The notes beneath the pieces were generated by a model, which was not told where the DNA came from, made no database searches, and saw only the letters and a list, made by a program, of their open reading frames with translations. A DNA stretch of 52,342 nucleotides from a bacterium (GTDB lineage: Bacteria > SZUA-79 > Acidulodesulfobacterales > Acidulodesulfobacteraceae): positions 1 to 52,342 of the forward strand of contig JAKAFU010000010.1 in the NCBI GenBank assembly GCA_021825865.1, in the 5' to 3' direction. Of the stretch, positions 5,605 to 51,021 are shown one piece after another (position 1 is the first letter of the stretch; each line of letters starts with the position of its first letter). The translations under genes were made by a program, and so were the position numbers.

Positions 5605-6948
5605 ATGGAATTTAAAAAAATGGAGAATAAAGATATCGGCAAAGATGCCGGCAACAAGATTAATATAGGACTATTAGGCTTTGGAACGGTAGGCGGAAGC
5701 TTTTACAGGATATTAGATATTCGTAAAAAAGAAATAGAAGCAATGCTTTCCTCCGACGTGACGATAAAAAAGATATTTACGCGGGGTAATAGAAATCCGT
5801 CAATTGATAATGCCGGTCATTTAATGGTCAATAATGCAGATGATATTTTAAATGATAAAAGTATAAATGTAATAGTTGAACTTATGGGTGGAATTACTCC
5901 TGCTAAAGAGTATATCGAAAAAGCCATAAAAAACGGCAAAAGCGTTATAACTGCAAATAAAGCCCTTTTAGCCGAGCATGGGGAAGAAATATTTAAATTA
6001 TGTAAAAAACATAATGCGCATATCGGGTTTGAGGCTGCAGTCGGAGGCGGCATTCCTATTTTAAGGTCGATAAAAAACGGTCTTGCCGGAGATTCAATAA
6101 CGTCCGTGTTTTCTATAATAAACGGAACATCAAACTATATTTTATCAAAGATGACGAATGAGGGCGGAAAGTTTGACGATATACTGAAAAAAGCTCAGGA
6201 AAAAGGCTATGCCGAAGCAGACCCTTCCTTCGACATAAACGGAATTGACAGCGCTCATAAATTAGTTATATTAGGCAGGCTTGCATTTGCGGCTAGCATA
6301 TCGTTAAAAGACGTTATAATAGAAGGAATTAAAGGAGTCAGCGATATAGATATTTGTTTTGCGCGTGACCTTGGATATAAAATTAAACTTTTAGGTATTC
6401 TTAAAAATGATGATTCAAAAATAGAGATAAGAGTGCATCCGACCCTTATCCCCTCAGGCAGTTTATTATCAAATGTTGACGGGGTATTTAACGCATTTTT
6501 TCTGAACGCAAAATTTGCAGGTCCCATAAGCCTGACCGGTTACGGTGCAGGCGGTATGGCAACTGCAAGCGCGGTTATGGGAGATTTTATTGAAATAGCC
6601 GGAAAAATTATAAACAGTGAAAAACATCATGATATTTTTCTTAATGAAAGTTCAAATAAAGTTCAGATAAAAAGAAAAAAGGACATAATATCGAGATACT
6701 ATTTAAGATTTTCAGCAATGGACAGACCGGGCGTCCTTGCTAAAATTTCTAAGATTCTCGGAGACAATTCAATCAGCATAAGTTCGATGATTCAGCAGGG
6801 CAGGAAGATAGACGGTTCTGTTCCTATAGTTATAACCACTCACGAAGCGAATGAAGAAGAATTATTAAAAAGTATAGAATTATGCGACAAATTAGACATT
6901 GTTCTTGCAAAAACTATGATTTTGAGAATTGAAGATAACGTAAACTAA
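5605..6948 (+). CDS. hom: homoserine dehydrogenase
   Basis: A 447-residue monofunctional enzyme that reduces aspartate semialdehyde to homoserine. It has an N-terminal Rossmann motif GFGTVGG (25-31), a catalytic domain with Asp215 and Lys219 in NGIDSAHKL, the NGTSNYIL signature (173-180) and a C-terminal ACT domain (about 370-447, starting DRPGVLAKIS) that implies feedback control, usually by threonine. ATG codons at 5605 and 5620 are both possible; neither has a Shine-Dalgarno sequence. It precedes thrC and the apgM-like gene, forming a threonine biosynthesis group; aspartate kinase is not in the window. Confidence 0.95.
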   Translation: MEFKKMENKDIGKDAGNKINIGLLGFGTVGGSFYRILDIRKKEIEAMLSSDVTIKKIFTRGNRNPSIDNAGHLMVNNADDILNDKSINVIVELMGGITPAKEYIEKAIKNGKSVITANKALLAEHGEEIFKLCKKHNAHIGFEAAVGGGIPILRSIKNGLAGDSITSVFSIINGTSNYILSKMTNEGGKFDDILKKAQEKGYAEADPSFDINGIDSAHKLVILGRLAFAASISLKDVIIEGIKGVSDIDICFARDLGYKIKLLGILKNDDSKIEIRVHPTLIPSGSLLSNVDGVFNAFFLNAKFAGPISLTGYGAGGMATASAVMGDFIEIAGKIINSEKHHDIFLNESSNKVQIKRKKDIISRYYLRFSAMDRPGVLAKISKILGDNSISISSMIQQGRKIDGSVPIVITTHEANEEELLKSIELCDKLDIVLAKTMILRIEDNVN

Positions 6949-7193
6949 AATAATACCTTATATTATAATATTAATAAATATTAATATATTACAAAATTAA
7001 TATTCCATAATATAAATATTTTATAATATTACTATCTTAACTTAGTTATCCAATTAATCATTTGCAGGTTACGGCTTAGTTCAGTTTTTAATTTATCTGT
7101 TATTTTGATTTGATTTAATTTGATTTTAATTCAATTTAATTTTAGTTTGGTTTGAGTTTTACAATATCTTAAATTGGTTATCTAATTAATAAT

Positions 7194-8285
7194 GTGAATC
7201 GTATATGGGGGTTAATTTTGCATCCGCAGAAATATGAAGGCGTTATCAAAAAATATCGTGAATTTTTACCGGAGATAGACGATGAGTTTATTGTAAGCAT
7301 TAATGAGGGCAATACACCGCTCATTAAATCAAGAAATGTTTATAAAACTATAAACCCTGAAATTGAAATTTATTTTAAATATGAAGGGTTAAATCCGACC
7401 GGTTCTTTTAAGGATAGAGGAATGACGATGGCTGTGTCAAAAGCGGTAGCCGACGGTTCAAAAGCGATAATATGCGCATCTACCGGCAATACTTCCGCCG
7501 CCGCCGCCGCTTATGCCGCCAGAGCCGGTATAAAATCATTTGTGCTTATTCCTGAAGGTAAAATTGCTATGGGTAAACTTTCTCAGGCGCTCATGCACGG
7601 TTCTCTTGTCATGCAAATTCAGGGAAATTTTGACGATGCGCTTATTATAGCCAAAGAAATATCGGAAGAATTTGAAGTAACTCTGGTAAATTCGGTTAAT
7701 CCCTATCGTATAGAAGGACAGAAAACAGCCAGTTTTGAAATAGCGGACGAACTTGGGAAAGCTCCCGACTACCATGTACTTCCGGTAGGCAATGCAGGCA
7801 ATATTACTGCATACTGGAACGGTTATAAAGAATATAAGCAAGCCGGAAAAATTCAAAACTTGCCTAAAATGCTCGGCTTTCAAGCTGCAGGAGCTGCGCC
7901 TATAGTACTCAATCATATAGTTAAAGAACCTCACACTATTGCCACCGCTATAAGAATAGGAAACCCCGCAAGCTGGCAAAAAGCGGTTAAGGCAAAAGAA
8001 GAATCGGGAGGACTAATTGAAGCAGTGACGGATGAAGACCTGCTTTCCGCTTACGCTCTGCTTGCAAGAACGGAAGGAATATTTTGCGAACCCGCTTCGG
8101 CTATAACGTTGGCCGGTTTAATTCAGTTAAATAAACGCGGATTTTTCAAAAAAGGCGATGTCTGTGTTTTGACTTTAACGGGGCACGGACTTAAAGACCC
8201 GCAAAATGCAATAAAAGTTTCAAGCGAGCCGATAGTTGTTCCATGTGATAAAAAATCAGTTTTAAAGGCAATGGAGCTAATTTAG
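7194..8285 (+). CDS. thrC: threonine synthase
   Basis: A 363-residue PLP enzyme that turns O-phosphohomoserine into threonine. It resembles the short Bacillus-type ThrC over its whole length: EGNTPLI (38-44), PLP lysine Lys73 in NPTGSFKDRG, CASTGNTSAAAAAYAARAG, and the phosphate-binding PVGNAGNITAYW. The GTG start at 7194 is the only sensible one; the overlapping ATG at 7192 is followed at once by TGA. The 245-base spacer from hom is AT- and T-rich. Its substrate requires a homoserine kinase; no thrB is present, but the next gene may supply that activity. Confidence 0.95.
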   Translation: MNRIWGLILHPQKYEGVIKKYREFLPEIDDEFIVSINEGNTPLIKSRNVYKTINPEIEIYFKYEGLNPTGSFKDRGMTMAVSKAVADGSKAIICASTGNTSAAAAAYAARAGIKSFVLIPEGKIAMGKLSQALMHGSLVMQIQGNFDDALIIAKEISEEFEVTLVNSVNPYRIEGQKTASFEIADELGKAPDYHVLPVGNAGNITAYWNGYKEYKQAGKIQNLPKMLGFQAAGAAPIVLNHIVKEPHTIATAIRIGNPASWQKAVKAKEESGGLIEAVTDEDLLSAYALLARTEGIFCEPASAITLAGLIQLNKRGFFKKGDVCVLTLTGHGLKDPQNAIKVSSEPIVVPCDKKSVLKAMELI

Positions 8286-8363
8286 CAATAGATACTGATA
8301 ATTAATGAATAATAAATGGATAATAAATAACATAAAATAAATAAACATGGAGAGATTGAAAAT

Positions 8364-9608
8364 ATGGAAGAAAAAAAAAAATATATTATTCTGTGTCCTG
8401 ACGGTATGGCTGATTTTCCTTTAACAGAGCTGAATAATAAATCTCCGCTTGATTTTGCGTCAACACCCAATATGGATTATATTGCTTTCAATGGCATTAC
8501 CGGACTTGTTAAAACAATTCCGGACGACTGTCTTCCGGGAAGCGATATCGGTTCTATGAGTATTTTAGGGTATGACCCTGTTAAGTATTATACAGGAAGG
8601 TCTCCTTTAGAAGCTATATCCATGGGTATTGAGCTTATGGACAGCGATGTTGCTTTCAGACTTAATCTTATCAATATACTTGATGAAAACGGAAAAAGAA
8701 TTATGCATGATTATTCCGGCGGACATATTACCACAGAAGAAGCAAAGAGCATATTGGAGACATTACAGAAAGAATTGGGCGGCGCCGATTTTCAATTTTA
8801 TCCGGGCGTCAGCTATAGGCATCTTATGGTTGCTAAAAATGCTCTTGACATAAAAGGGCTGCAGACCGTAGCTCCTCATGATATACCGGACATGCAGATA
8901 GACGAATATCTGCCCCATGGAAATTCATCAAGCGGTATTTTGTTGGAAATAATGAAAAAAGCAGAAAATATACTTAAAAATCATGATGTTAATAAAGCGA
9001 GAATAGCTTCCGGCAAGCTTCCGGCAAATTCTATATGGCTATGGGGGCAGGGGCATAGACCAAGTATGCCCACTATGAAGGAAGAGTACGGAATAGAAGG
9101 TTCCGTCATATCCGCGGTTGACCTTGTAAAAGGAATTGGAAAATATGCAGGACTAAATTCTATTGACGTTCCGGGTGCTACGGGATATCTTGACACAAAT
9201 TATAAAGGCAAAGTCGAATACGGTTTAAATTCGCTGCATTCAGGCGATTTTGTATACATTCATGTAGAAGCTCCTGACGAGGCGTCGCATGAAGGCAGCA
9301 TTGAAAAAAAAATACAGGCTATACAGGATTTTGATAAATATATAGTCGGCGGCGTTCTTGAAGGAGTGAAAGAATATCAGGATTTTATTATAATGATTTT
9401 GCCGGACCATTATAATCCTGTAAAATTAAAAAAACATACAGCAGGACCCGTTCCTTTTTGCGCTTTTTCGCCGTCAATGAAAGATACCCATTTTAAATAT
9501 CATGCGTCTAATTTTTCCGAAAAAAATTCTCAAAACACCGGTTTATTTTTTGACTCAGGCGCTAAACTATTTAAAAATTTTTTAAATTCTTTTAATGAAT
9601 TCTTATAA
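8364..9608 (+). CDS. ApgM-family phosphotransferase: phosphoglycerate mutase or proposed homoserine kinase
   Basis: A 414-residue member of the alkaline phosphatase/2,3-bisphosphoglycerate-independent phosphoglycerate mutase superfamily, archaeal ApgM type. Metal and catalytic residues are visible: Asp13 (CPDGMADFP), Ser60 in LPGSDIGSMSILGYDP, and later EAPDEASHEG and LPDHYNP. One reading is a mutase interconverting 2- and 3-phosphoglycerate. A bacterial subgroup (TIGR02535, recalled) is proposed to be homoserine kinase in species lacking ThrB and to sit beside hom/thrC, exactly as here, 78 bases after thrC. GGAGA at 8350 gives a good ribosome site. Family confident, substrate open. Confidence 0.85.
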   Translation: MEEKKKYIILCPDGMADFPLTELNNKSPLDFASTPNMDYIAFNGITGLVKTIPDDCLPGSDIGSMSILGYDPVKYYTGRSPLEAISMGIELMDSDVAFRLNLINILDENGKRIMHDYSGGHITTEEAKSILETLQKELGGADFQFYPGVSYRHLMVAKNALDIKGLQTVAPHDIPDMQIDEYLPHGNSSSGILLEIMKKAENILKNHDVNKARIASGKLPANSIWLWGQGHRPSMPTMKEEYGIEGSVISAVDLVKGIGKYAGLNSIDVPGATGYLDTNYKGKVEYGLNSLHSGDFVYIHVEAPDEASHEGSIEKKIQAIQDFDKYIVGGVLEGVKEYQDFIIMILPDHYNPVKLKKHTAGPVPFCAFSPSMKDTHFKYHASNFSEKNSQNTGLFFDSGAKLFKNFLNSFNEFL

Positions 9609-9864: not shown

Positions 9865-11121
9865 ATGAACGAAAATGTGTTTAAATGGGATAGTAAAGTG
9901 TGTATTCCGAAAGAAGGGAGTTTTATTAAGCTAAAAGAGGATAAAACATTAGAAATACCCGATAATCCTATAATTCCTTATATTGAAGGAGACGGAATAG
10001 GTCCTGAAATTGTTCCGGTAATGCATAAAGTTTTAAACAGCGCCGTAAAAAAAGCATATAACGGCTCAAAAGTTGTTTATTGGGTAGAAGCGCTGGCCGG
10101 AGACAAAGCTGAAAAGAACGGATTAGAAAGAATGCCCGAAGCAACGTTGGAGATTTTAAAACAAAGCGTTGTTTCTATAAAAGGACCGCTCGGCACTCCT
10201 GTCGGCAAACCTGGAAAATCTCTTAATTCAATTTTAAGGCAGTCCATGGATTTTTATTCGGCAATAAGACCTGTCTACTATCTTGGACAGCCGTCGCCGA
10301 TACCGGATGCCGAACGGGTTAACGTAACGGTATTCAGGGAAAATTCAGACGATGTTTATATGGCTATAGAATATATGCCGAAATCAGACGGAGCAAAAAA
10401 AGTGCGGGAGTTTTTTATCGATGAAATGGGCGTGAAACCGGACGCTATTCCCGAAGATGCGGGTATTACCGTTAAGCCTATGAGTGAATTTAAAACTAAA
10501 AGGCATGTAAGAAAAGCTTTCAGATATGCCATAGATAATAATAAAAAATCGATTGCGGTAGCCGGAAAAGGTAATATTATGAAAGCTACCGAGGGCGCTT
10601 TTATGAATTGGGCTTTTGAAGTAGCGAAAGAAGATGAATTTAAGGATAAAATATCGGCAGGACCGGTTGCCGGCAATCAGATAAAACTTTCCAAAGTCAT
10701 AACCGACCAGATGCTTATGCAGTTAGTTTTAAAGCCTGATGCTTATGATGTTATCATTACCCAGAATTTGAACGGCGATTATATATCAGACCTTGCTTCA
10801 GCTCTCGTAGGAGGACCGGGTTTTGTTCCAAGCGGAAATATCGGAGACGGTTACGCTCTTTTTGAAAGTACCCACGGAGTCGGCATGGACATTGCCGGAA
10901 AAGGCATGGCAAATCCTTTATCTATTACTTTATCGGGCGCAATGATGCTTGAATACATCGGATTCAAAGAAGCTGCAGACCTTATTTATAAAGCCGTAAA
11001 AAGCGTTATAGCGCAGCGTAAAGGTACAAGCGATATGTTTTCCGGATTTAAAAAAATGGGTAAAGATGCAACGGAGCTTAAGACTGCCGAGTTTGGCGAG
11101 GCTATTCTAATTGAAATATAA
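9865..11121 (+). CDS. icd: isocitrate dehydrogenase, probably NAD-dependent
   Basis: A 418-residue homologue of E. coli Icd. Substrate residues are conserved: Ser119 and Asn121 (GKSLN, with Ser119 matching the phosphorylated Ser113), Arg125, Tyr165, Lys235, and metal ligands Asp305 and Asp309. The coenzyme loop reads HGVGMDIAGKG (337-347): Lys344/Tyr345 of the NADP enzyme are replaced by Asp342/Ile343, the classical NAD-type pair, and Tyr391/Arg395 are not kept. In Hydrogenobacter such an enzyme reduces oxalosuccinate to isocitrate. AGGAGA precedes the ATG, and the gene heads the rTCA operon, 29 bases before the osmC-like gene. Confidence 0.93.
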   Translation: MNENVFKWDSKVCIPKEGSFIKLKEDKTLEIPDNPIIPYIEGDGIGPEIVPVMHKVLNSAVKKAYNGSKVVYWVEALAGDKAEKNGLERMPEATLEILKQSVVSIKGPLGTPVGKPGKSLNSILRQSMDFYSAIRPVYYLGQPSPIPDAERVNVTVFRENSDDVYMAIEYMPKSDGAKKVREFFIDEMGVKPDAIPEDAGITVKPMSEFKTKRHVRKAFRYAIDNNKKSIAVAGKGNIMKATEGAFMNWAFEVAKEDEFKDKISAGPVAGNQIKLSKVITDQMLMQLVLKPDAYDVIITQNLNGDYISDLASALVGGPGFVPSGNIGDGYALFESTHGVGMDIAGKGMANPLSITLSGAMMLEYIGFKEAADLIYKAVKSVIAQRKGTSDMFSGFKKMGKDATELKTAEFGEAILIEI

Positions 11122-11150
11122 ACTATGCGACAAAATTTTGGGGGTGAACT

Positions 11151-11561
11151 ATGAAATTATCGGTTAGACAGAAAGAAGATTTTCATTTTATCGGCTCAGG
11201 CGATTCAGGCGAAATAAACATTGACGCGGCAGGATACGTCGGCGGAAAAGGCAGAGGAGTAAGACCGCCTGAACTTTTTCTTTATTCTATTGCAGGATGT
11301 ATGGGTATCCATGTGTACGAAGCCCTTCACAAGAGCGGTAAAAACGTGGAAGATATCATAGTGGATACCGACAGTGAACGAAAAGAAACTTCTCCTAAAG
11401 TTTTCACAAAGATTTCTTTATCTTTTACCATAAAAGCTAAAGAACTTACCAAAGAAGATGTAACTAAGGCTATCGAGGAAGCTCTTAATAAGACATGCAG
11501 CATTGCGTATCTGATAAATCAGGTAGCTCCTATCTCGTATTCCTTTAAGATAGAGCAGTAA
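11151..11561 (+). CDS. OsmC/Ohr-family protein
   Basis: A 136-residue alpha/beta protein with the two OsmC-family cysteines, Cys50 (SIAGCMGIHV) and Cys116 (KTCSIAYL). In characterised OsmC and Ohr proteins these reduce organic hydroperoxides, but many YhfA-like members have no proven role. The Shine-Dalgarno sequence GGGGGTGA is strong. Tight placement between icd and the biotin carboxylase suggests co-transcription with the carbon-fixation genes. A protective role for oxygen- or peroxide-sensitive partners is speculation. Confidence 0.85.
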   Translation: MKLSVRQKEDFHFIGSGDSGEINIDAAGYVGGKGRGVRPPELFLYSIAGCMGIHVYEALHKSGKNVEDIIVDTDSERKETSPKVFTKISLSFTIKAKELTKEDVTKAIEEALNKTCSIAYLINQVAPISYSFKIEQ

Positions 11562-11607
11562 GCAATACTTCTGGATAATAAACAATTATGGAGGGCAATA
11601 TATAATT

Positions 11608-13026
11608 ATGTTCAAGAAAATTCTTGTAGCAAATCGGGGAGAAATAGCCTGCAGAATTATCAGGGCGGCAAAAGAACTGGATATTCCGACGGCTGCGATT
11701 TTTTCCGAGGTTGAGCCTACGGCAAGACACGTAAAAATGGCTGATGAAGCTTATATGCTGGGAGCTAATCCCTTGGATGCCTATTTAAATTACGAGCTCA
11801 TTATTGATCTGGCAAAGTCTATAGGTGCGGATGCGGTTCATCCCGGATACGGATTTCTAGCTGAAAATGCCGAATTTGCAAAGGCTGCCGAGGATAACGA
11901 TATTAATTTTATCGGTCCGTCTTCGGAAGTTATTGCTTTAATGGGTGATAAGGCGCGCTCAAAAGAGGTTATGAAAAGATTCGGGGTTGCTACTGTTCCC
12001 GGAAGCGACGGTATTTTGAAATCTTTAGAAGAAGCTATTGAAATTGCTAAAGAAATTACTTATCCTATCCTTCTTAAGGCTACGGCAGGCGGCGGCGGAC
12101 GCGGTATCAGGCTGTGCAAAAATGAAGAAGAATTAAAAAAGAACTACGAAAGTGCTTATTCGGAAGCCAAAAAGGCATTTGGAAACGGCGACCTGCTTTT
12201 AGAAAAATTTATTGAGAACCCAAAGCACACCGAGTTTCAAATTCTTGGAGATAAATACGGTAATGTGATTCATCTTGGTGAAAGAGACTGTTCAATTCAG
12301 AGAAAAAATCAAAAGATGATTGAAATAGCACCTTCTATAATACTTACCGAAGAAAAACGTAAGTTTTACGGTGATGCTATGGTGAATGCATGTAAGCAGA
12401 TAGGTTATTACAGCGCAGGTACTATTGAGAACGTTTCGGATTTGCAGGGTAATACTTATTTTATTGAAATGAACACGAGGGTGCAGGTTGAGCACCCTGT
12501 TACCGAAATGATTACCGGAGTCGATATAGTAAAAGAGCAGATCAAGATAGCCGCCGGTCAAAAACTTGCGATAAAACAGGAAGATGTGAAGTTGAACGGT
12601 TTTGCGATAGAGTGCAGAATAAATGCCGAGGATTCTAAACATGATTTTCGTCCGAGTATCGGCACGGTAGAGAGATATTATGTGCCGGGAGGCAATAACA
12701 TCAGGGTTGAAAGCGCTGTTTCAGTCGGCTTTGAAGTTACGCCATATTATGATTCTCTGATTGCTAAATTAATATGCTGGGGAAAAACATTTGAAGAAGC
12801 GATACAAAAAACAAAAATAGCTCTGGATTCTTATGAAATAAGCGGCATAAAAACTACTATACCGATTCTTAAACAAATAATTCAGCAGGAAGATTTTAAA
12901 ACAGGTTTATTTACTACAAAATATTTAGAAGAACATCCTGAAGTTTTTAATTATGACGAAGTTAAAGACAAAGAAGACTATGTTGCATTTATAAGCGCTG
13001 CACTTGCAGCCTATCACGGTTTATAG
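11608..13026 (+). CDS. cfiB: biotin carboxylase subunit of 2-oxoglutarate/pyruvate carboxylase
   Basis: A 472-residue ATP-grasp enzyme that carboxylates biotin with bicarbonate and ATP. It shows the N-terminal ILVANRGEIACRI, the glycine-rich ATP loop KATAGGGGRGIR (157-168), metal ligands Glu274 and Glu287, and EMNTRVQVEHP (287-297). Length and the ending DKEDYVAFISAALAAYHGL match, from memory, CfiB (472 residues) of Hydrogenobacter thermophilus, the small subunit of 2-oxoglutarate carboxylase. Pyruvate carboxylase subunit A is nearly identical in design, so the acceptor is decided by the partner. GGAGGG precedes the ATG; the next gene starts 10 bases after the stop. Confidence 0.88.
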   Translation: MFKKILVANRGEIACRIIRAAKELDIPTAAIFSEVEPTARHVKMADEAYMLGANPLDAYLNYELIIDLAKSIGADAVHPGYGFLAENAEFAKAAEDNDINFIGPSSEVIALMGDKARSKEVMKRFGVATVPGSDGILKSLEEAIEIAKEITYPILLKATAGGGGRGIRLCKNEEELKKNYESAYSEAKKAFGNGDLLLEKFIENPKHTEFQILGDKYGNVIHLGERDCSIQRKNQKMIEIAPSIILTEEKRKFYGDAMVNACKQIGYYSAGTIENVSDLQGNTYFIEMNTRVQVEHPVTEMITGVDIVKEQIKIAAGQKLAIKQEDVKLNGFAIECRINAEDSKHDFRPSIGTVERYYVPGGNNIRVESAVSVGFEVTPYYDSLIAKLICWGKTFEEAIQKTKIALDSYEISGIKTTIPILKQIIQQEDFKTGLFTTKYLEEHPEVFNYDEVKDKEDYVAFISAALAAYHGL

Positions 13027-13036
13027 GAGGATATCA

Positions 13037-14962
13037 ATGAGCACTATCGAAACTATTGAAGAAATGTTGAAAAAAGGTAAGATTGAAGCGGCAAAGCCAA
13101 AGAAAATATTTATAACCGATTTAACGGCAAGAGACGGGATTCAATGCAAGTTAGCAACAAGGGTTAAGACCGATGATTTAATTCCGTTATGCGAAAAAAT
13201 GGACAAAGCCGGTTTGTACGCTTTTGAGATGTGGGGAGGAGCTACATACGATGTTTGCCTCAGATACTTGAAAGAAGACCCGTGGGAAAGACTGAGACGC
13301 ATAAAAGAAGTAATGCCTAAAACAAAACTTCAGATGCTGTTCCGCGGTCAGAGCATAGTCGGCTATAGACCCAGAGCGGATAAAGTAGTGTATAAGTTTG
13401 TGGAAAAAGCGCTCAAAAACGGGATAACAGTTTTTAGAGTTTTCGATTCGCTGAACGATAACAGAAATATTGAAGTTGCCTGCAAGGCGGTAAAAGAACT
13501 GGGCGGTGAGTGCCACGCCGAAATAAGCTACACGAAAAGCCCTGTTCACACTTACGAAAAATGGATGCAATATGCCGATGAGCTTATCGAAATCGCTCCG
13601 GACTGGATATCATTCAAAGATGCAACAGGTATCATGATGCCTTTAGATACATATAATATTATAAAAAGTATAAAAGATAAAGTCGGCGATAAAATAAAGG
13701 TTTTACTCCATAATCACGATATGAGCGGAACGGCAATAATGAACCATATGATGGCAATCTATGCAGGCGTGGATATGCTGGATACGGTTTTATCGCCTTT
13801 AGCTTTCGGTTCTTCTCATCCCGCAACTGAAAGCGTTGTTGCAGCTTTGCAGGGTACGCCTTATGATACCGGCATAGATATTAAAATTTTAGAAGAAGCA
13901 GCTGCTATAATGTCGGGGATAAGGAAGGATTATAGAAAATACGAAACAGAATACGGCGGGGTAAACGCTAAGGTTTTAATCCATAAAATCCCCGGCGGCA
14001 TGATTTCAAATATGGTGGCACAGTTAAAAGAAGCTAATGCTTCAGACAGGATTGAAGAAGTTTTAAAGGAAACCCCTATAGTGGAAAAAGACCTCGGCTA
14101 TCCGCCTCTTCTTACTCCGTCTTCTCAGATAGTCGGCGTTCAGGCTGTTTTGAACGTTATTTCAGGAGAAAGATATAAAATTATTACAAAGGAAGTCAGA
14201 GACTATGTAGCCGGAAAATATGGAATGCCTCCGGGAACCGTGTCTAAGGAACTCGTCACCAAAATTTTAGGACCGGACAAGAAACCTGATTACAGCAAAA
14301 AGCCCAGCGAAAGCGCGGATGCAAACGAATGGGATAATGCCGTTAAGGAAGTCGGAATATTAGCAAAATCAGATGAAGATATACTTTTATATGTACTTTT
14401 TCCGATGCAGGGAATGGAATTTTTAAAGGCGAGAGAGAGCGGAGGTCTTGTGTCTGATGTTATTGCCGGCGCTGAGGAAATTATAGAAACGCAGCCTGGT
14501 GTTATGGAAAATGCAGCCCCTGTAGAGTTTGACATTACATATCACGGCGATAAATTCAGCGTTAAAGTAGAAGGCGTTTCTCCAAGCCAGGAACAGGGAA
14601 AACCAAGAAAATATTACGTGAGAGTACAAGGCAAACTTGAAGAAGTTCAGCTTTATTCAAAAGTTGAAGCTGCAGTAGGCGGCGGCAATTATTCCCAGTG
14701 CAGAACACCGGGAGCACAATCAACGGCGCAGCGTAATGTTCTTCAGGAAGGGGACGCTACTGCCCCTATATCCGGCAGAGTCGCAAAAATTCTTGTAAAA
14801 GAAGCCGATAAAGTTGAAAAGGGTCAAACAATAGCAATAGTGGAAGCAATGAAAATGGAAAATGAAATTCATGCTCCGATATCAGGGACGGTAAAAGCTA
14901 TTTATGTTAAAACCGGCGACAATATAACCCCTGCAGACGCACTTCTTAGAATAGAACCCTGA
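13037..14962 (+). CDS. cfiA: biotin-carrying carboxyltransferase subunit (CfiA/PycB-like)
   Basis: A 641-residue protein from the ATG at 13037, which has an ideal AGGAGG site; an ATG at 13004 lies inside cfiB and is rejected. Order: HMGL-like barrel with TDLTARDG (Asp28), MLFRGQ (101-106), probable carbamylated Lys194 (SFKDATG) and metal histidines His225/His227 (HNHD); PYC/OADA domain; C-terminal biotinyl domain with EAMKM (Lys606). It transfers CO2 from biotin to 2-oxoglutarate (giving oxalosuccinate) or pyruvate (giving oxaloacetate). MLFRGQ and the icd/ccs neighbours favour CfiA, but a phylogeny is needed. Confidence 0.85.
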   Translation: MSTIETIEEMLKKGKIEAAKPKKIFITDLTARDGIQCKLATRVKTDDLIPLCEKMDKAGLYAFEMWGGATYDVCLRYLKEDPWERLRRIKEVMPKTKLQMLFRGQSIVGYRPRADKVVYKFVEKALKNGITVFRVFDSLNDNRNIEVACKAVKELGGECHAEISYTKSPVHTYEKWMQYADELIEIAPDWISFKDATGIMMPLDTYNIIKSIKDKVGDKIKVLLHNHDMSGTAIMNHMMAIYAGVDMLDTVLSPLAFGSSHPATESVVAALQGTPYDTGIDIKILEEAAAIMSGIRKDYRKYETEYGGVNAKVLIHKIPGGMISNMVAQLKEANASDRIEEVLKETPIVEKDLGYPPLLTPSSQIVGVQAVLNVISGERYKIITKEVRDYVAGKYGMPPGTVSKELVTKILGPDKKPDYSKKPSESADANEWDNAVKEVGILAKSDEDILLYVLFPMQGMEFLKARESGGLVSDVIAGAEEIIETQPGVMENAAPVEFDITYHGDKFSVKVEGVSPSQEQGKPRKYYVRVQGKLEEVQLYSKVEAAVGGGNYSQCRTPGAQSTAQRNVLQEGDATAPISGRVAKILVKEADKVEKGQTIAIVEAMKMENEIHAPISGTVKAIYVKTGDNITPADALLRIEP

Positions 14963-14983
14963 TACTAACGGAGGTATTTACTT

Positions 14984-16225
14984 ATGAAACTTTATGAATA
15001 TGAAACATACGACGCGATATTTAAAAAATACGGTGTTCCTACTCCTAAATATTTAGTAGTTCAACATCCCGGGCAAAATGTCGAGGATTTTGTTGACCAG
15101 TATGGCGATGTTGTTTTGAAATCTCAGGTTCTGGTCGGGAAAAGGGGCAAGGCGGGAGCCGTTAAATTTGCGTCAACCGGAGACGAAGCAAACGAACAAG
15201 TGAAGGCTTTAATGTCCAGCGATGTTTATGGGGAAATGCCTGTAAGCGTTATTTTGCAGGAAAAGGCTTCAATATTGAAAGAACTTTATGTAAGTTTTAC
15301 ATATTCTTCAAAGCATAGAAAGCCCGTGCTTGTAATTTCCTTGCAAGGCGGTATGGAAATTGAAGAACAGGAGCCTGCAAAAATTTTTACGTTTGATATC
15401 GACCCGCTGGAAGGGCTTTTTGCTTATAAAGTGAGAGAGATTCTTCTTGAAATCGGATTGCAGGATAAAGAAATATTAAGACAGCTTTCCGAAGTTATCG
15501 CAAATATGTATCACGGTTTCTGGAGTTCGGAAGCAAGGCTGGTAGAAATTAATCCGATAGCTATCGTTGAGGATAAAAAAGTACCCGGAAAACAAAAAAT
15601 ACTTGCTCTTGATGCTGTAACAATAATTGACGACGACGCACGAATTGCACCGTCAAAGATATATTCGGCAAGAGGCTCAATGGGAAGACCGTTAACGGAA
15701 AGAGAATCGGCAGCCCATCTTATAGACAGGGACGACCATCGGGGAAAAGCAGGTTCTTATGTCGAACTTGACGGTAATATTGCTCTTATGACTTTCGGCG
15801 GAGGGGGCTCCACAATTACGGCCGAAACGGTTATTGCACTCGGATTAAAACCGGCAAATCTGACAGATATCGGCGGCAATCCGCCGGCGGAAAAAATGAA
15901 TAAAATAACCAAAATAATTTTATCCAAGCCGGGATTAAAAGCCGTCCTCGTCTGCGGAGGCACTGCTAGCAATACCAGAATTGACGTGACGCTTGGAGAA
16001 GGTCTTGTTTCCGCCATCGAAGAAATGATAAAGGAGGGAACTTTTCCTCAAGGAATAATATGGGTTGTAAGAAGGAGCGGTCCTGAATACAAAAAAGGAT
16101 TACAGATGTTAAACGACTGTTTTGTAAAAAATAATATAGAAGCTGTAATTTATGATTCTGAGCTTCCTTTAACCGCTGCTCCTCAAAAACTTTATGATAT
16201 ATTAAAAGAAAGAAATATTATTTAA
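14984..16225 (+). CDS. ccsA: citryl-CoA synthetase large subunit (SucC/ACLY-like)
   Basis: A 413-residue protein with an N-terminal ATP-grasp domain (about 1-210, including KSQVLVGKRGKAG at 45-57 and VEINPIAIV) and a C-terminal ligase domain with FGGGGSTITAETV, resembling succinyl-CoA synthetase beta and the N-terminal part of ATP-citrate lyase. Directly before a SucD-like subunit and near a citryl-CoA lyase, the best call is CcsA, the subunit of Hydrogenobacter citryl-CoA synthetase (citrate + CoA + ATP). Ordinary succinyl-CoA synthetase is less likely given ccl. GGAGG precedes the ATG, 22 bases after cfiA. Confidence 0.85.
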   Translation: MKLYEYETYDAIFKKYGVPTPKYLVVQHPGQNVEDFVDQYGDVVLKSQVLVGKRGKAGAVKFASTGDEANEQVKALMSSDVYGEMPVSVILQEKASILKELYVSFTYSSKHRKPVLVISLQGGMEIEEQEPAKIFTFDIDPLEGLFAYKVREILLEIGLQDKEILRQLSEVIANMYHGFWSSEARLVEINPIAIVEDKKVPGKQKILALDAVTIIDDDARIAPSKIYSARGSMGRPLTERESAAHLIDRDDHRGKAGSYVELDGNIALMTFGGGGSTITAETVIALGLKPANLTDIGGNPPAEKMNKITKIILSKPGLKAVLVCGGTASNTRIDVTLGEGLVSAIEEMIKEGTFPQGIIWVVRRSGPEYKKGLQMLNDCFVKNNIEAVIYDSELPLTAAPQKLYDILKERNII

Positions 16226-16261
16226 ATATCAGACTATAACAGACATGGAGACAATTAAATT

Positions 16262-17263
16262 ATGAAAGGCACTAAATATTTAAATGACGAGACGGGCATC
16301 ATAGTTATCGGGATTACAGGAAGGGAAGCTTCGCAGGTTGTAATAGAATCTGAAAAACTTTATCCGGGAATGGTAAAATGCGGAGTTACTCCGGGTAAAG
16401 GCGGAATTCCCAACGATGCTCTGAAAGTTCCTGTTTTTGATACAGTTAAAGAAGCGCTCGCAGTCCCGGAATTTAAAAAAACAGTAAATACAGGGCTTAT
16501 ATATGTGCCGCCTACTTCCGTTCTGGATGCGGTAATGGAATTGATTAACCACGGTATAAAACTTATGTATATAATAACGGAGCACGTTCCTATAAGAGAT
16601 TCTATTATTATTTATGAAATAGCTAAATCCAAGGGAGTGACCGTAATAGGAGGCACTTCGTTAGGGTGTTTCGTGCCGTCGGTGGGCAGAATCGGCGCAA
16701 TCGGCGGAAAAGACCCGAGCATTGCTTTTAAAGAAGGCTCCGTAGTTGTATTATCAAAAAGCGGGGGGCTTACGGTAACTACTTCCGAAATGATTAAAAG
16801 ACGCGGATACGGCATATATATGGCTCTCGCATTGGGAGGAGATATTATATCCTGTACTACTTTTGCGGATGTGCTGCCGGAACTGGAAAAAGATACGAAT
16901 GTTAATGCCTGCGTAATTCTTGGTGAACCGGGAGGAACATACGAAGAACAGGTTGCGGAATTAATATTAAAAGGCGGATATACTAAGCCTCTTGCGATAT
17001 TTGTTTCAGGTGTATTTCAGGAAAATATGCCGGACGGTGTTGCATTCGGTCATGCCGGTGCTATTGTTGAAAGGGGTATGGGTAAAGCTACCGATAAGAT
17101 TAATTTACTTGAACAAGTTGGAAAAAAAACAGGTACTATCAAAGTAGCGCGATTCTACCACGAGTTAGTCAATTGTCTTATGTCTCTCGGAGTAAAAAAA
17201 GATTTTGAAGACACTTCTTCCGATAATGTAAAACCTCTTTACAGTACTCTTAAGGCTTCTTAA
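16262..17263 (+). CDS. ccsB: citryl-CoA synthetase small subunit (SucD-like)
   Basis: A 333-residue SucD-like subunit with an N-terminal CoA-binding Rossmann domain (IIVIGITGREASQVVIES, 13-30) and a C-terminal ligase domain containing the phosphohistidine His264 in AFGHAGAIVERGMG; Glu222 in GEPGG is the usual partner acid. It is somewhat longer than E. coli SucD (289), as expected for CcsB, and has a C-terminal extension rich in Ser and Lys. GGAGA gives a ribosome site. The gene ends a run from icd; a strong terminator-like hairpin follows at 17304. Confidence 0.87.
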   Translation: MKGTKYLNDETGIIVIGITGREASQVVIESEKLYPGMVKCGVTPGKGGIPNDALKVPVFDTVKEALAVPEFKKTVNTGLIYVPPTSVLDAVMELINHGIKLMYIITEHVPIRDSIIIYEIAKSKGVTVIGGTSLGCFVPSVGRIGAIGGKDPSIAFKEGSVVVLSKSGGLTVTTSEMIKRRGYGIYMALALGGDIISCTTFADVLPELEKDTNVNACVILGEPGGTYEEQVAELILKGGYTKPLAIFVSGVFQENMPDGVAFGHAGAIVERGMGKATDKINLLEQVGKKTGTIKVARFYHELVNCLMSLGVKKDFEDTSSDNVKPLYSTLKAS

Positions 17264-17303
17264 CTTAATTAAATATTTTTAGCTTTTAGCGTAATAAATT
17301 ATA

Positions 17304-17350
17304 ATTAACACCTTGATATTTTTCGATGATATTAAGGTGTTAATTTTTTA
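17304..17350 (+). terminator. Rho-independent terminator after ccsB
   Basis: ATTAACACCTT (17304-17314) pairs perfectly with AAGGTGTTAAT (17334-17344); the 19-base loop can itself pair ATAT with ATAT, and a T-run follows at 17344-17349. This would end the icd-ccsB transcript and separate ccl into its own unit. Confidence 0.8.
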
Positions 17351-17468
17351 TTATTTTATGTTTGCAAAATGTAAGAAATAGTATTATATTATAGGAATTA
17401 TAAGAATTATATATAATTATTAATTATTAAAATTAAAAAATTATACAAAATCCTGGAGCAAATCTAAC

Positions 17469-18266
17469 ATGTCTGATGAAAAACCGAAAGAATGGCGCAC
17501 TGCTATAACGTCAAATCAGGACGGTAAAATTCTAATTCGCGGATACAATCTCGATAATCTAATTGGAAATAAGTCGTATGCCGATGTCTGTTTTCTTCTC
17601 TTAAAAGGAGAAATGCCGAATCAGGCTGAAGCAAAAATGCTTGATGCTATATTGGTTTCAAGCATTGATGCAGGCATTGCTCCGCCTTCCGCCGTTGCGG
17701 CAAGAACCATATTTTCAGGCGGGAATTCTCTTAATGCAGCTGTTGCCGGCGGTATACTTACACTTGGAGATGCGCACGGCGGCGCCATAGAGAAAGCTGC
17801 CAAGTTATTTCAAGATGAATTAAAAGGTAAAGATGTTAAAAATATTAATGTAGGCGAAACGGCCAAAAAAATAGTCGATGATGCGCTTAAGAATAAAAAA
17901 AGATTGGCAGGTTACGGTCATAAACTGCACTCAATTGACCCTCGAACTACAAGACTGCTTACAGTCGCAAAATCATTAAATTTTGGCGGTGCATATGTCG
18001 AGCTTGCCGTTGCAATTGCCGAAGAATTTAAAAATAAAAAGCCTGAACAAAAATTGCCTCTCAACGTTGACGGAGCAATAGGCGCAATAATGTCCGATAT
18101 GGGTTTAGATTATAGACTCGGAAAAGGATTGTTTATTATAGCAAGGTCTGCGGGATTAGTCGGACAGGTGTTTGAAGAATGGCTCAGAGAAAAACCATTT
18201 AGAAGATTAAGGTCTGACCTGCATGAATACGACGGAGTTCCAGAGCGTCCTCTGCCGCTTGATTGA
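17469..18266 (+). CDS. ccl: citryl-CoA lyase
   Basis: A 265-residue citrate synthase-fold protein, far shorter than citrate synthase (about 430) and matching the lyase part of ATP-citrate lyase. Catalytic positions are visible: His103 (DAHGGAIEKA), His151 (GYGHKLHSIDPRT) and Asp201 (LNVDGAIGAI). It cleaves citryl-CoA into acetyl-CoA and oxaloacetate, the second half of citrate cleavage in the rTCA cycle of Hydrogenobacter-type autotrophs. It follows ccsAB but lies beyond a terminator, so it probably has its own promoter in the AT-rich 17351-17450 stretch. GGAG lies upstream of the ATG. Confidence 0.9.
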   Translation: MSDEKPKEWRTAITSNQDGKILIRGYNLDNLIGNKSYADVCFLLLKGEMPNQAEAKMLDAILVSSIDAGIAPPSAVAARTIFSGGNSLNAAVAGGILTLGDAHGGAIEKAAKLFQDELKGKDVKNINVGETAKKIVDDALKNKKRLAGYGHKLHSIDPRTTRLLTVAKSLNFGGAYVELAVAIAEEFKNKKPEQKLPLNVDGAIGAIMSDMGLDYRLGKGLFIIARSAGLVGQVFEEWLREKPFRRLRSDLHEYDGVPERPLPLD

Positions 18267-18407
18267 AAGTGTTAAAAGTGTTAAACCGATGATTTTTTAA
18301 AGATTATACATTAAAATATTTATTATATTAATTAATGCACTATGTCGATTTATATATTAATTAATGCGCTGATTAATAATATATTAATTATATAAGGGTG
18401 GTTAAAA

Positions 18408-19364
18408 ATGGATGATAAGACCTTAACAATTGAGTTTGTACGTGTTACAGAACATGCTGCTATCGCATCTGCAAAGCATGTAGGAAGAGGAGATGAAAAA
18501 GCTGCCGATAAAGCTGCGGTGGATTCAATGAGAAGTTCGCTTGACTGGATAGATATTGACGGCACAATTGTTATTGGCGAAGGAGAGAGAGATCAGGCGC
18601 CTATGCTTTTTATAGGCGAAAAAGTCGGAACAGGCAAGGGACAGGCAGTAGATATTGCGGTTGACCCGTTGGAAGGAACGACAATTTGTGCTCAGGGCGG
18701 ACAGAACAGCATCTCGGTTATGGCTATAGCCGACCACGGACATTTTTTACATGCGCCGGATACATACATGGATAAAATAGCGGTCGGACCAAAAGCAAAG
18801 GGAGCGATAGATTTAACCCTCAGTCCTTCTAAAAATCTTCAGAGAATTGCCGAGGCTCTCAACAGATATGTTGAAGACCTTACCGTCGTAATTCTCAATA
18901 GAGAACGTCATCAAAATTTAATTAGCGAAGTAAGAAAGGCCGGCGCAAGAATAAAATTGATTCAAGACGGCGATATCTCCGGCGCTATTGCTGCGGCAAA
19001 AGAAGATACCGGCGTTGATGTGCTTATGGGAATAGGCGGAGCTCCAGAAGGGGTTATCAGCGCTGCCGCACTCAGATGCGTCGGCGGCGATATGCAGGGA
19101 AGACTTACATTTAGAAATGAAGAAGAAAAAGAACGCGCTAAAAAAATGGGCATTGAGGATTTCGATAAAATATACGGCATAGATGAGCTTGCTTCCGGCG
19201 ATGTTATTTTTGCCGCTACAGGGGTTACAACCGGCGAATATTTGCCCGGCGTAGTTTTTTTCCCCGGCGGTGCAAAAACCAGTTCCGTCGTTATGAGGTC
19301 AAAAACAAGAACTGTTAGATATATTGAAGCAGTTCATTATTTTGATTATAAGGATATATCCTAG
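18408..19364 (+). CDS. glpX: class II fructose-1,6-bisphosphatase GlpX
   Basis: A 318-residue metal-dependent sugar phosphatase. Metal-site motifs are complete: GRGDEKAAD (27-35), GEGERDQAP (57-65) and DPLEGTT (86-92), plus the C-terminal FFPGGAKTSS. It hydrolyses fructose-1,6-bisphosphate to fructose-6-phosphate, the committed step of gluconeogenesis, which fits a cell making sugar from acetyl-CoA produced by the neighbouring citrate-cleavage genes. GGGTGG lies 7-12 bases before the ATG. A sedoheptulose-bisphosphatase activity, as in some GlpX proteins, cannot be excluded, but no Calvin cycle gene is present. Confidence 0.95.
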   Translation: MDDKTLTIEFVRVTEHAAIASAKHVGRGDEKAADKAAVDSMRSSLDWIDIDGTIVIGEGERDQAPMLFIGEKVGTGKGQAVDIAVDPLEGTTICAQGGQNSISVMAIADHGHFLHAPDTYMDKIAVGPKAKGAIDLTLSPSKNLQRIAEALNRYVEDLTVVILNRERHQNLISEVRKAGARIKLIQDGDISGAIAAAKEDTGVDVLMGIGGAPEGVISAAALRCVGGDMQGRLTFRNEEEKERAKKMGIEDFDKIYGIDELASGDVIFAATGVTTGEYLPGVVFFPGGAKTSSVVMRSKTRTVRYIEAVHYFDYKDIS

Positions 19365-20664: not shown

Positions 20665-21060
20665 ATGGAAGAAGAAAATTCTAATATTCTTATTGTTCAG
20701 CTGTCTGATCCTGAAAAAGAACCTGAAAAATGTATTGCCAGTTTAATATTTGCCAGAACATTAGCGGTTATGGAGCAGAATATTTTCATTTTCAGTATGG
20801 CAAGGTCACCCCTTCTTTATACCAAAGACTTGAATAAAAGCGATAAAATAGAAACCGGATATTTGCAGCTTATGAATGAGAATATTTCTTATCTTACAAA
20901 TGACGTTGAATATATTAATATTTATATCTGCTCTAAAAGCAAAGAACTTCTTCATCTTGAAGAAGATATGCTTGTGGATTCCGTAAAACCTATCCAGATA
21001 GCCGGAATGCTTACGCTGCATTCGCTTAAAACATCAAGCGCTCATGCGTATTTTTTTTAA
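20665..21060 (+). CDS. hypothetical protein, possible DsrE-like fold
   Basis: A 131-residue soluble protein I do not firmly recognise. Its layout (a beta strand NILIVQLSD, helix with two cysteine-free turns around ASLIFARTLAVMEQ, strand NIFIFSMAR, a Cys in strand YINIYICSKS, C-terminal helix IQIAGMLTLHSLKTSSAHAYFF) resembles small DsrE/DsrF-type alpha/beta proteins, which in sulfur metabolism carry or shuttle sulfur on a cysteine. Cys23 and Cys90 are the only cysteines. No Shine-Dalgarno sequence is seen. It sits alone before the dcw promoter region. The fold guess is weak. Confidence 0.55.
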   Translation: MEEENSNILIVQLSDPEKEPEKCIASLIFARTLAVMEQNIFIFSMARSPLLYTKDLNKSDKIETGYLQLMNENISYLTNDVEYINIYICSKSKELLHLEEDMLVDSVKPIQIAGMLTLHSLKTSSAHAYFF

Positions 21061-50316: not shown

Positions 50317-51021
50317 ATGATACTTGAAGATATTAGATATCAGTTGGATCAGTTTTCCAGCTTTGACGATGTCAGGCTTTCAATTAAAATAAATAATAAA
50401 ACGGGTATTATTTATTATAACGCAGGTATGATTGTCGGTGCTATTTTTGATGATAAAAAAAATATTGATGTTTTTAAAGAACTGAAAGAATTGGAAGGTC
50501 AGGCTGAAATTGGCGTAAGCATTGGAGAGCCAATGCCGAATAGTTTTGACGAAGATAAAATAGATAAATCTTTAGATGAAATTCTAGAAATAATTAATAA
50601 ACCAGAAACAGTTGAATCTATCAGCGACGATGACGATAATTCGGATATAAATTTAACCGACGACACGATTTTTAACAGTGAAATTACTAACGAGGCTGTT
50701 GCTGCTATAGGAGAGAATCTATCGCTAATAACAGGCGTTGAAGGAGTTCTTGTCTTAAAAGCTTCAGGGGAAGTTATCTATTCTAAAAGCGTAGACGATC
50801 CTGATTTTGAATCTGCAGATACATTATTTTTATTCAATCAAAGTAAAGAATTGGGAGATATGTTTAATTTTAAGAATCTAAAAAGCATTATATGCGAAGC
50901 CAATAATAATTATAGAAAAATAATTATAAATAATAAGAATATAACTTATAGCCTTATCGTTTCTTCTTCCGTGCAAGCTCTTAAAACGCAAACTGAAGCG
51001 GTAAAACTTTTAGAAGGTTGA
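50317..51021 (+). CDS. two-part protein with DUF4388-like N-terminus and roadblock/LC7-like C-terminus
   Basis: A 234-residue soluble protein. The first about 75 residues (ILEDIRYQLDQF... GIIYYNAGMIVGAIFDD) resemble the DUF4388/PATAN-type domains of bacterial signalling proteins. An acidic Asp/Asn linker (about 95-120) leads to a roadblock/LC7-like domain (LSLITGVEGVLVLKASGEVIYSKS onward) that ends in an alpha helix. Roadblock proteins act as activators or scaffolds of small Ras-like GTPases such as MglA. No GTPase gene is in the window. Domain calls are by pattern only. Confidence 0.6.
   Translation: MILEDIRYQLDQFSSFDDVRLSIKINNKTGIIYYNAGMIVGAIFDDKKNIDVFKELKELEGQAEIGVSIGEPMPNSFDEDKIDKSLDEILEIINKPETVESISDDDDNSDINLTDDTIFNSEITNEAVAAIGENLSLITGVEGVLVLKASGEVIYSKSVDDPDFESADTLFLFNQSKELGDMFNFKNLKSIICEANNNYRKIIINNKNITYSLIVSSSVQALKTQTEAVKLLEG

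Follow-up and report, generated by a model that had tools for sequence, protein, structure and literature searches.

An acid-mine bacterium of the order Ca. Acidulodesulfobacterales (GTDB SZUA-79) carries in one 9.5-kb cluster the genes of what we regard, with good confidence, as a symmetric, doubly two-step arc of the reductive TCA (rTCA) cycle, in which the ccsAB-ccl-glpX part is old and the icd-osmC-cfiB-cfiA cassette was acquired from Hydrogenobaculum-like Aquificota of hot springs. The host had been called deltaproteobacteria-like in a preliminary description of this DNA. The locus lies at positions 9865-19364, on the forward strand, of the window, the 52,342-nucleotide stretch of DNA that we analyzed.

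The cluster opens with icd-A (icd, 9865..11121), a member of the isocitrate dehydrogenase (ICDH) family (PF00180) whose product has the NAD(H)-type coenzyme motif HGVGMDIAG. It is followed by an OsmC-family gene (11151..11561; PF02566, 62 bits), then by cfiB (11608..13026) and cfiA (13034..14962) for the predicted 2-oxoglutarate carboxylase, ccsA (14984..16225) and ccsB (16262..17263) for the large and small subunits of citryl-CoA synthetase, ccl (17469..18266) for citryl-CoA lyase, and glpX (18408..19364) for a class II fructose-1,6-bisphosphatase (above the TIGR00330 cut-off). All are intact open reading frames (ORFs). The preliminary description named these genes correctly and in order but overlooked the OsmC-family gene between icd and cfiB. 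The cfiA ORF opens with a TTG at 13004 (652 amino acids [aa]); since AGGAGG precedes the alternative ATG at 13034 (642 aa), the latter is the likelier start. The exact length match to Hydrogenobacter thermophilus CfiA, one of the grounds on which CfiB and CfiA had been named, is thus partly accidental, but the names held up, that of CfiB against a solved structure and that of CfiA in a tree. In the ccsB/ccl gap, a consensus scan placed a terminator-like hairpin of 18 pairs followed by a T run (17303..17345, forward strand). Such sites numbered 8 against 9.4 expected in shuffles, so they are not significant as a set, and the promoter and terminator scans gave results close to chance level. The gene order recurs in other genomes of the family and is therefore neither chance nor an assembly artifact, with glpX after ccl in every family locus examined in full. 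An assembly or binning artifact was also ruled out by the position of the cassette between conserved neighbors in many MAGs, including on a 501-kb contig, and the GC3 of the cassette resembles that of its neighbors.

The best PDB matches of CcsA, CcsB, and Ccl are the solved citryl-CoA synthetase and lyase of H. thermophilus: 6hxq_B, the large subunit, for CcsA (536 bits versus 145 for the best succinyl-CoA synthetase), 6hxq_A for CcsB (431 versus 173), and 6hxp for Ccl (236 versus 67 for the best citrate synthase). CcsA has the PF16114 ATP-citrate-lyase citrate-binding domain above the gathering score, and CcsB has the phosphohistidine loop FGHAGAIVERG. Ccl, about 260 aa long, is a stand-alone protein resembling the C-terminal part of citrate synthase and is closest to known Ccl; it passes the citryl-CoA lyase models NF004869 (294 bits; cut-off, 212) and NF004866. 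Aligned with 6hxp, it keeps the citrate-synthase-like His/His/Asp positions in DAHGGA, GYGHK, and NVDGA. CcsAB do not group with the succinyl-CoA synthetases (SCS): the genome has its own SucCD on contig C57, which pass the SCS cut-offs that CcsAB fail. Profile searches of the genome found no ATP-citrate lyase. These comparisons support CcsAB and Ccl as a predicted citryl-CoA synthetase and citryl-CoA lyase, the two-enzyme citrate cleavage that the preliminary description had proposed in place of ATP-citrate lyase.

Icd-A is the only ICDH in the genome; the sole other match is LeuB-like and adjoins leuC-type genes on contig C7. It scores below the cut-off of the NADP-IDH equivalog TIGR00183 (439 versus 567 bits), and its best PDB match is 1iso, an NAD-specific engineered E. 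coli isocitrate dehydrogenase. In the tree, it falls in a clade with the Icd of Aquificaceae, and the two have in common a one-residue gap after RPV and the DIAG motif. We propose that Icd-A is an NADH-type oxalosuccinate reductase and infer that it would be non-decarboxylating; since it keeps the usual ICDH catalytic positions, the sequence alone gives no sign against decarboxylation. A second type, icd-B, has an NADP motif and passes TIGR00183 (654 bits; cut-off, 567). In the family, 14 genomes have NAD-type icd-A together with cfiAB and 13 have NADP-type icd-B without cfiAB, and among these genomes the co-occurrence of cfiA and icd-A has no exception. Both kinds of locus occupy one syntenic chromosomal position. 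The OsmC-family protein is a constant member of the cassette, its gene lying upstream of cfiB in 29/29 Aquificota clusters examined.

The genome, which is 90.5% complete and in which gene absences refer to profile searches, holds a reductive TCA gene set. Both ferredoxin-dependent synthases, one of the checks set out in the preliminary description, are present: pyruvate synthase (POR) on contig C13 and 2-oxoglutarate synthase (KOR) on contig C57. Together with the CcsAB and Ccl comparisons above, this means that none of the refuting conditions named in that description arose. So are SucCD, fumarase, aconitase (contig C22), PycAB (contig C11), and an FrdA/SdhA-type flavoprotein assigned by PF02910, a model that does not separate FRD from SDH. 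In 13 genomes, no citrate synthase domain was found besides Ccl, in a search that did not cover Re-citrate synthase. The autotrophy that had been suggested fits this gene set but is not new, since Tan et al. 2019 (PMC6776010) had already published an rTCA cycle with ccsAB for the order, reporting rTCA genes in 4/4 genomes as well as expression of ccsAB.

The possible ATP-driven carboxylation of 2-oxoglutarate gained support as a predicted activity. CfiB is closest to the solved 2-oxoglutarate carboxylase small subunit (7kct/7kbl, 776 bits). CfiA, with HMGL-like, PYC_OADA, and biotin_lipoyl domains and the biotin site EAMKM, falls in one clade with Aquificaceae CfiA (support, 100/100), apart from PycB. 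A comparison of 24 CfiA with 36 PycB gave fixed differences in or near the carboxyltransferase center: S37C, W61Y, S62A, L102F, A197T, T229M, and T259S. Clade membership and this covariation suggest that CfiAB is a 2-oxoglutarate carboxylase. A rival reading takes CfiAB for another pyruvate carboxylase, or for an enzyme like oxaloacetate decarboxylase, that just happens to adjoin an ordinary icd. CfiAB does have the domain architecture of two-subunit pyruvate carboxylases, the NCBIfam name is pyruvate carboxylase subunit B, and among solved structures CfiA is closest to M. flagellatus PycB (5ks8_C), the PDB matches including no 2-oxoglutarate carboxylase large subunit. We nevertheless consider this very improbable, given the closeness of CfiB and CfiA to their 2-oxoglutarate-type counterparts, the substitutions, the strict tie of cfiA to a different icd type, and a distant, separate PycB in 27/30 family genomes. 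This genome is among them (C11:111311-113185), and its PycB passes the oadA model (816 bits; cut-off, 756) while CfiA fails it (668). The direction of the arc has to be weighed as well, since the enzymes are reversible and the genes do not prove reductive flux. Because there is no citrate synthase, Ccl and CcsAB would, in an oxidative arc, form citrate with a gain of ATP, and Icd-A would oxidize isocitrate with NAD+. Ccl being the only protein with a citrate synthase domain, the reversibility in principle of the reactions, an NAD-type motif suited to catabolism, and the published portrayal of members of the order as autotrophs that are facultatively anaerobic and metabolically versatile (PMC6776010) are all consistent with this. 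An ATP-driven 2-oxoglutarate carboxylase would, however, be useless in the oxidative direction, reductive use fits the ferredoxin-dependent POR and KOR as well as glpX, and transcripts of ccsAB have been reported from AMD (PMC6776010). We consequently regard an oxidative arc as improbable.

The two halves of the locus appear to differ in origin. The icd-osmC-cfiB-cfiA genes are collinear with a cassette of the acidophile Hydrogenobaculum that holds these four genes in identical order, at 77-81% identity (Icd, 80%; OsmC, 80.9%; CfiB, 79%). For icd, osmC, and cfiA, Hydrogenobaculum and Hydrogenobacter are only 69-74% identical, below the SZUA-Hydrogenobaculum values; for cfiB, the two comparisons are equal (79% versus 81%). 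A four-gene tree groups the SZUA cassette genes with Hydrogenobaculum (99/99). CcsA shows the reverse pattern, with 62% identity between SZUA and Hydrogenobaculum versus 83% between Hydrogenobaculum and Hydrogenobacter; it is about 62% identical to that of all Aquificota, and both ccs genes, ccsA and ccsB, stand at equal distances from all of them (61-67%). This equidistance rules out a single transfer of the whole locus from Aquificae, so the Aquificae-type donor of the preliminary description stands for the cassette and falls for the locus as one module. In AU tests, Aquificota monophyly in the cassette tree was disfavored but not rejected at 5% (p = 0.064 concatenated, 0.114 for icd, 0.098 for cfiA), and for ccsA, a grouping of SZUA with Hydrogenobaculum was not rejected either (p = 0.248). 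A CcsA scan of genome contigs matched Aquificota, SZUA-79, and distant archaea, with no Leptospirillum or Nitrospirota CcsA. The ccsAB genes are a deep, family-wide possession, and only the cassette looks recently derived; transfer from a Hydrogenobaculum-like donor in the Aquificota is the favored direction (AU p = 0.064). Alternatively, the cassette may be ancestral in the SZUA-79 family and repeatedly lost, with icd-B in its place, and be shared with Aquificota through an old common origin or a transfer in the opposite direction. The SZUA cassettes do form one clade, their g1-g6 divergence (76-82%) is similar to that of ccsA and ccsB (83%), and Aquificota monophyly survives at the 5% level. 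We think this unlikely: the cassette is closest to Hydrogenobaculum, not equidistant like ccsA; icd-B is one clade across four genera, with a branching order largely matching that of the backbone; and in the backbone tree, where cfi-less groups separate the cfi-bearing ones, the g6 genomes, which bear cfi, branch from among cfi-less genomes. We read the pattern as a horizontally acquired, predicted 2-oxoglutarate carboxylase/oxalosuccinate reductase having replaced the one-step ICDH in the family.

The two-step (symmetric) rTCA cycle is that of H. thermophilus and Aquificaceae, reportedly described by Aoshima and Igarashi (2004-2008). The SZUA genome resembles that system in having both citryl-CoA synthetase and lyase, a predicted 2-oxoglutarate carboxylase with an ICDH (about 420 aa) of the oxalosuccinate reductase type, and separate PycAB and SucCD copies. 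Its ccsA, in contrast, comes from a different deep lineage, and in the Aquificota loci compared, cfi and ccs are never together; in Hydrogenobaculum, ccsAB-ccl-glpX does not come after cfiA. The doubly two-step variant has been described as used by only one family, Aquificaceae (Braakman and Smith 2014, PMC3917532). Outside that family, Sulfurihydrogenibium azorense is reported to possess an additional biotin carboxylase, of the 2-oxoglutarate type, along with a short ICDH (PMC3917532); unlike the SZUA bacterium, it uses ATP-citrate lyase, and its carboxylase is possibly related to the G463/G483/G484 cassettes. Leptospirillum ferriphilum is likewise an acidophile with CCS/CCL citrate cleavage; solely E. 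coli-like ICDH genes were identified there, as in the cfi-less SZUA genomes, and an H. thermophilus-type route was concluded against (PMC2607301). Tan et al. 2019 (PMC6776010) studied the same order, their AP1 being our locus L160, and in their main text the word "carboxylase" does not occur and no division of the family by presence or absence of cfi is made. We found the carboxylation half, icd-osmC-cfiB-cfiA, to be the unreported part in this order.

In the proposed arc, CfiB would use ATP and bicarbonate to charge the biotin on CfiA, which would carboxylate 2-oxoglutarate to oxalosuccinate; Icd-A would reduce this to isocitrate, and aconitase would yield citrate. CcsAB would then convert citrate with ATP into citryl-CoA, which Ccl would cleave to acetyl-CoA and oxaloacetate. 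The ferredoxin-driven carboxylations would fall to pyruvate synthase and 2-oxoglutarate synthase and the anaplerotic one to PycAB, while GlpX would act in gluconeogenesis. The cassette, probably received from an acidophilic donor, sits where the one-step NADP-type isocitrate dehydrogenase of the family stands.

According to a published argument, the rTCA cycle in its doubly two-step form is ancestral and persists in Aquificaceae alone, other lineages having given it up to spare ATP (PMC3917532). Here a second phylum would hold it, and close relatives have either the ATP-driven module or the one-step enzyme at the same position, a natural comparison. We give about even odds to a mobile cassette that left the Aquificota for an acidophilic phylum and displaced a functioning one-step isocitrate dehydrogenase there, possibly on two occasions. 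If so, this would be the reverse of the accepted view, which treats the two-step form as a relic of the ancestral state that was later simplified away. Spending the extra ATP would then pay under certain circumstances, such as usable HCO3-, poor CO2, or a need to avoid back-decarboxylation of isocitrate, and the OsmC protein would be an unrecognized part of the carboxylation module. The cassette data suggest that the costly two-step solution is open to gain and not only to loss, and that carbon-fixation cycles may be reassembled piecewise via transfer between acidophiles.

The citrate cleavage and carboxylation genes of the window lie on the plus strand in the order icd (9865-11121), an OsmC-family gene overlooked by the preliminary description (11151-11561), cfiB (11608-13026), cfiA (13034-14962), ccsA (14984-16225), ccsB (16262-17263), ccl (17469-18266), and glpX (18408-19364). 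Intergenic gaps are 7 to 46 bases from icd to ccsB, 205 bases ahead of ccl, and 141 ahead of glpX. Between ccsB and ccl lies a hairpin of 18 pairs followed by a T tail (17303-17345), which suggests that ccl and glpX may form a separate transcript. The locus is flanked upstream by a threonine-synthesis/phosphoglycerate mutase group (5605-9608) and downstream by a cell-division cluster (MraZ, FtsA, FtsZ, and others; 21602-42422); open reading frames at 20665-21057, 50317-51018, and 51199-52014 gave no Pfam match at 1e-5. The window (33% GC) is contig C66 of a 1.9-Mb metagenome-assembled genome, 90.5% complete, whose closest relatives are 29 genomes, all of one family. Since a CcsA search recovers named family members including Candidatus Acididesulfobacter diazotrophicus AP1 and SZUA-79, we place the organism in Ca. 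Acidulodesulfobacterales, for which a reductive TCA cycle with ccsAB has already been published (PMC6776010).

The preliminary description proposed citrate cleavage by citryl-CoA synthetase and a separate lyase, and this reading holds. With the solved citryl-CoA synthetase of H. thermophilus (6hxq), CcsA scores 536 bits and CcsB 431, compared with 145 and 173 bits for the top succinyl-CoA synthetases, and a distinct SucCD on contig C57 passes the SCS models that CcsAB fail; CcsAB do not group with ordinary succinyl-CoA synthetases. CcsA also carries the citrate-binding domain of ATP-citrate lyase (PF16114) above the gathering score. Ccl matches the solved citryl-CoA lyase 6hxp, passes the NCBIfam citryl-CoA lyase subfamily models, and aligns at the citrate-synthase-like His/His/Asp positions. 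Among 14 family genomes searched, the only citrate-synthase domain was that of Ccl, and one genome, G008, had none; ATP-citrate lyase, whose large subunit carries this domain, was therefore likewise undetected. In G008 (genus g3; 99% complete, 1.4 Mb), ccl, ccsA, and icd were undetected, with only a LeuB-like protein found and PycB kept; this genome may have lost the cycle. On Heimdallarchaeota contigs L180, L182, and L187-L191, distant homologues of CcsA (24-28%), CcsB (28-32%), and Ccl (33-36%) occur together, and most of these contigs also carry an IDH-like gene.

The ferredoxin-dependent synthases on which the preliminary description made its cycle depend are encoded on other contigs of the genome: grouped pyruvate synthase genes on C13 and, on C57 together with fumarase and a ferredoxin, an alpha subunit of the 2-oxoglutarate synthase type. 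C59 encodes an FRD/SDH-class flavoprotein, and C22 a protein of aconitase size.

The top solved relatives of CfiB are small-subunit entries of 2-oxoglutarate carboxylase (7kct, 7kbl, and 7kc7). CfiA groups with the CfiA proteins of Aquificaceae at 100/100 support, and the PycB sequences of SZUA-79, Aquificota, and other taxa fall outside this clade. Between 24 CfiA and 36 PycB sequences, 22 columns show fixed or nearly fixed differences, several of them in conserved carboxyltransferase motifs: RDGxQC in CfiA versus RDxxQS in PycB, YA versus WS, LFRGQ versus LLRGQ, KDATG versus KDMAG, HNHDMSG versus HxHxTSG, and GSSHP versus GTSHP. These motifs presumably line the active site, as in pyruvate carboxylase. 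A second biotin carboxylase/carboxyltransferase pair, on contig C11, is about 55% identical to CfiB and 41-42% to CfiA; the large subunit of this pair scores 816 bits with the oadA model and so clears the 756-bit cut-off, which CfiA (668) does not reach, and we take the pair to be the pyruvate carboxylase. PDB entry 1ulz was deposited as the N-terminal domain of pyruvate carboxylase. Its sequence and that of CfiB from an Aquifex aeolicus MAG (L250:5665-7080, minus strand) are nearly identical, so the entry probably belongs to a 2-oxoglutarate carboxylase.

The family offers a natural experiment, being split between two types of icd. An icd-A accompanies cfiA in 14 of 30 genomes (7/7 of genus g1 and seven of g6), and 13 of 30 have icd-B, 45-47% identical to icd-A, without cfiA. 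Neither arrangement was found in G008, G025, whose contig stops at ccsA, or G029, which is 59% complete. In loci with flanks read, both layouts occupy the same slot, between apgM and ccsA. The icd-A product has the NAD-type coenzyme motif HGxxxDIAG, with 1iso as its top PDB match, and fails the NADP-ICDH equivalog model; icd-B, with the NADP-type motif HGSAPKY, does pass that model. A distant PycB is present in 27/30 genomes, covering both layouts, so the cassette (icd-osmC-cfiB-cfiA) is not accounted for by pyruvate carboxylation, but by a changed step from 2-oxoglutarate to isocitrate. A backbone tree built from five linked genes places the cfi-bearing genomes of g6 within groups that lack cfi, and the cassette/icd-B changes number at least two from well-supported branches and three by parsimony. 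Because these genes are linked to the cassette, the tree does not serve as an independent species phylogeny.

The cassette points to Aquificota. For the carboxylation module, matches above 49% were found in 59/136 Aquificota genomes, the nearest in Hydrogenobaculum (75-77%), and in none of about 355 sampled genomes outside Aquificota and SZUA-79. Every one of the five Hydrogenobaculum genomes read keeps the gene order of the cassette, with measured gaps of 15, 4, and 12 bases; in other Aquificota the arrangement is looser. An osmC lies upstream of cfiB in 29/29 Aquificota clusters examined (L247-L254, L256, and L320-L339), and an OsmC/YhfA-like gene accompanies cfiB in SZUA-79 too. Identities between the window and Hydrogenobaculum, versus Hydrogenobaculum and Hydrogenobacter, are 80% versus 74% for icd, 81% versus 69% for osmC, 79% versus 81% for cfiB, 77% versus 74% for cfiA, and 62% versus 83% for ccsA. 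A four-gene cassette tree joins SZUA to Hydrogenobaculum (99/99), adjoined by Aquificota genomes G463, G483, and G484 (100/100), and Hydrogenobaculum is again the neighbour in single-gene icd and cfiA trees. The ccsA tree sets SZUA apart from all Aquificota (99/99 and 95/90), although a grouping with Hydrogenobaculum is not formally rejected. When icd-B and PycAB serve as outgroup, SZUA falls within Aquificota in the best cassette tree; the test disfavours the alternative root without rejecting it (AU p = 0.064).

The simplest account starts from an old locus for CCS/CCL citrate cleavage whose ICDH was of the one-step NADP type. This locus would have received a ready-made cassette for ATP-driven 2-oxoglutarate carboxylation from an acidophilic member of Aquificota, inserted so as to displace the ICDH. 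The advantage of the cassette may be bicarbonate use, an NADH-linked irreversible step, or something else. In the open-access literature searched, neither the cfi cassette nor its split distribution nor its affinity to Hydrogenobaculum was reported. Braakman and Smith regarded the two-step route as ancestral, with Aquificaceae its sole survivors and losses elsewhere saving ATP; their single exception was S. azorense, which has 2-oxoglutarate carboxylase beside ATP-citrate lyase (PMC3917532). The complete cassette also occurs in G463 (L325), G483 (L333), and G484 (L326), possibly S. azorense-like Hydrogenothermaceae; if so, they would represent a second export of it. Our results suggest that the two-step route can be gained as well as lost.
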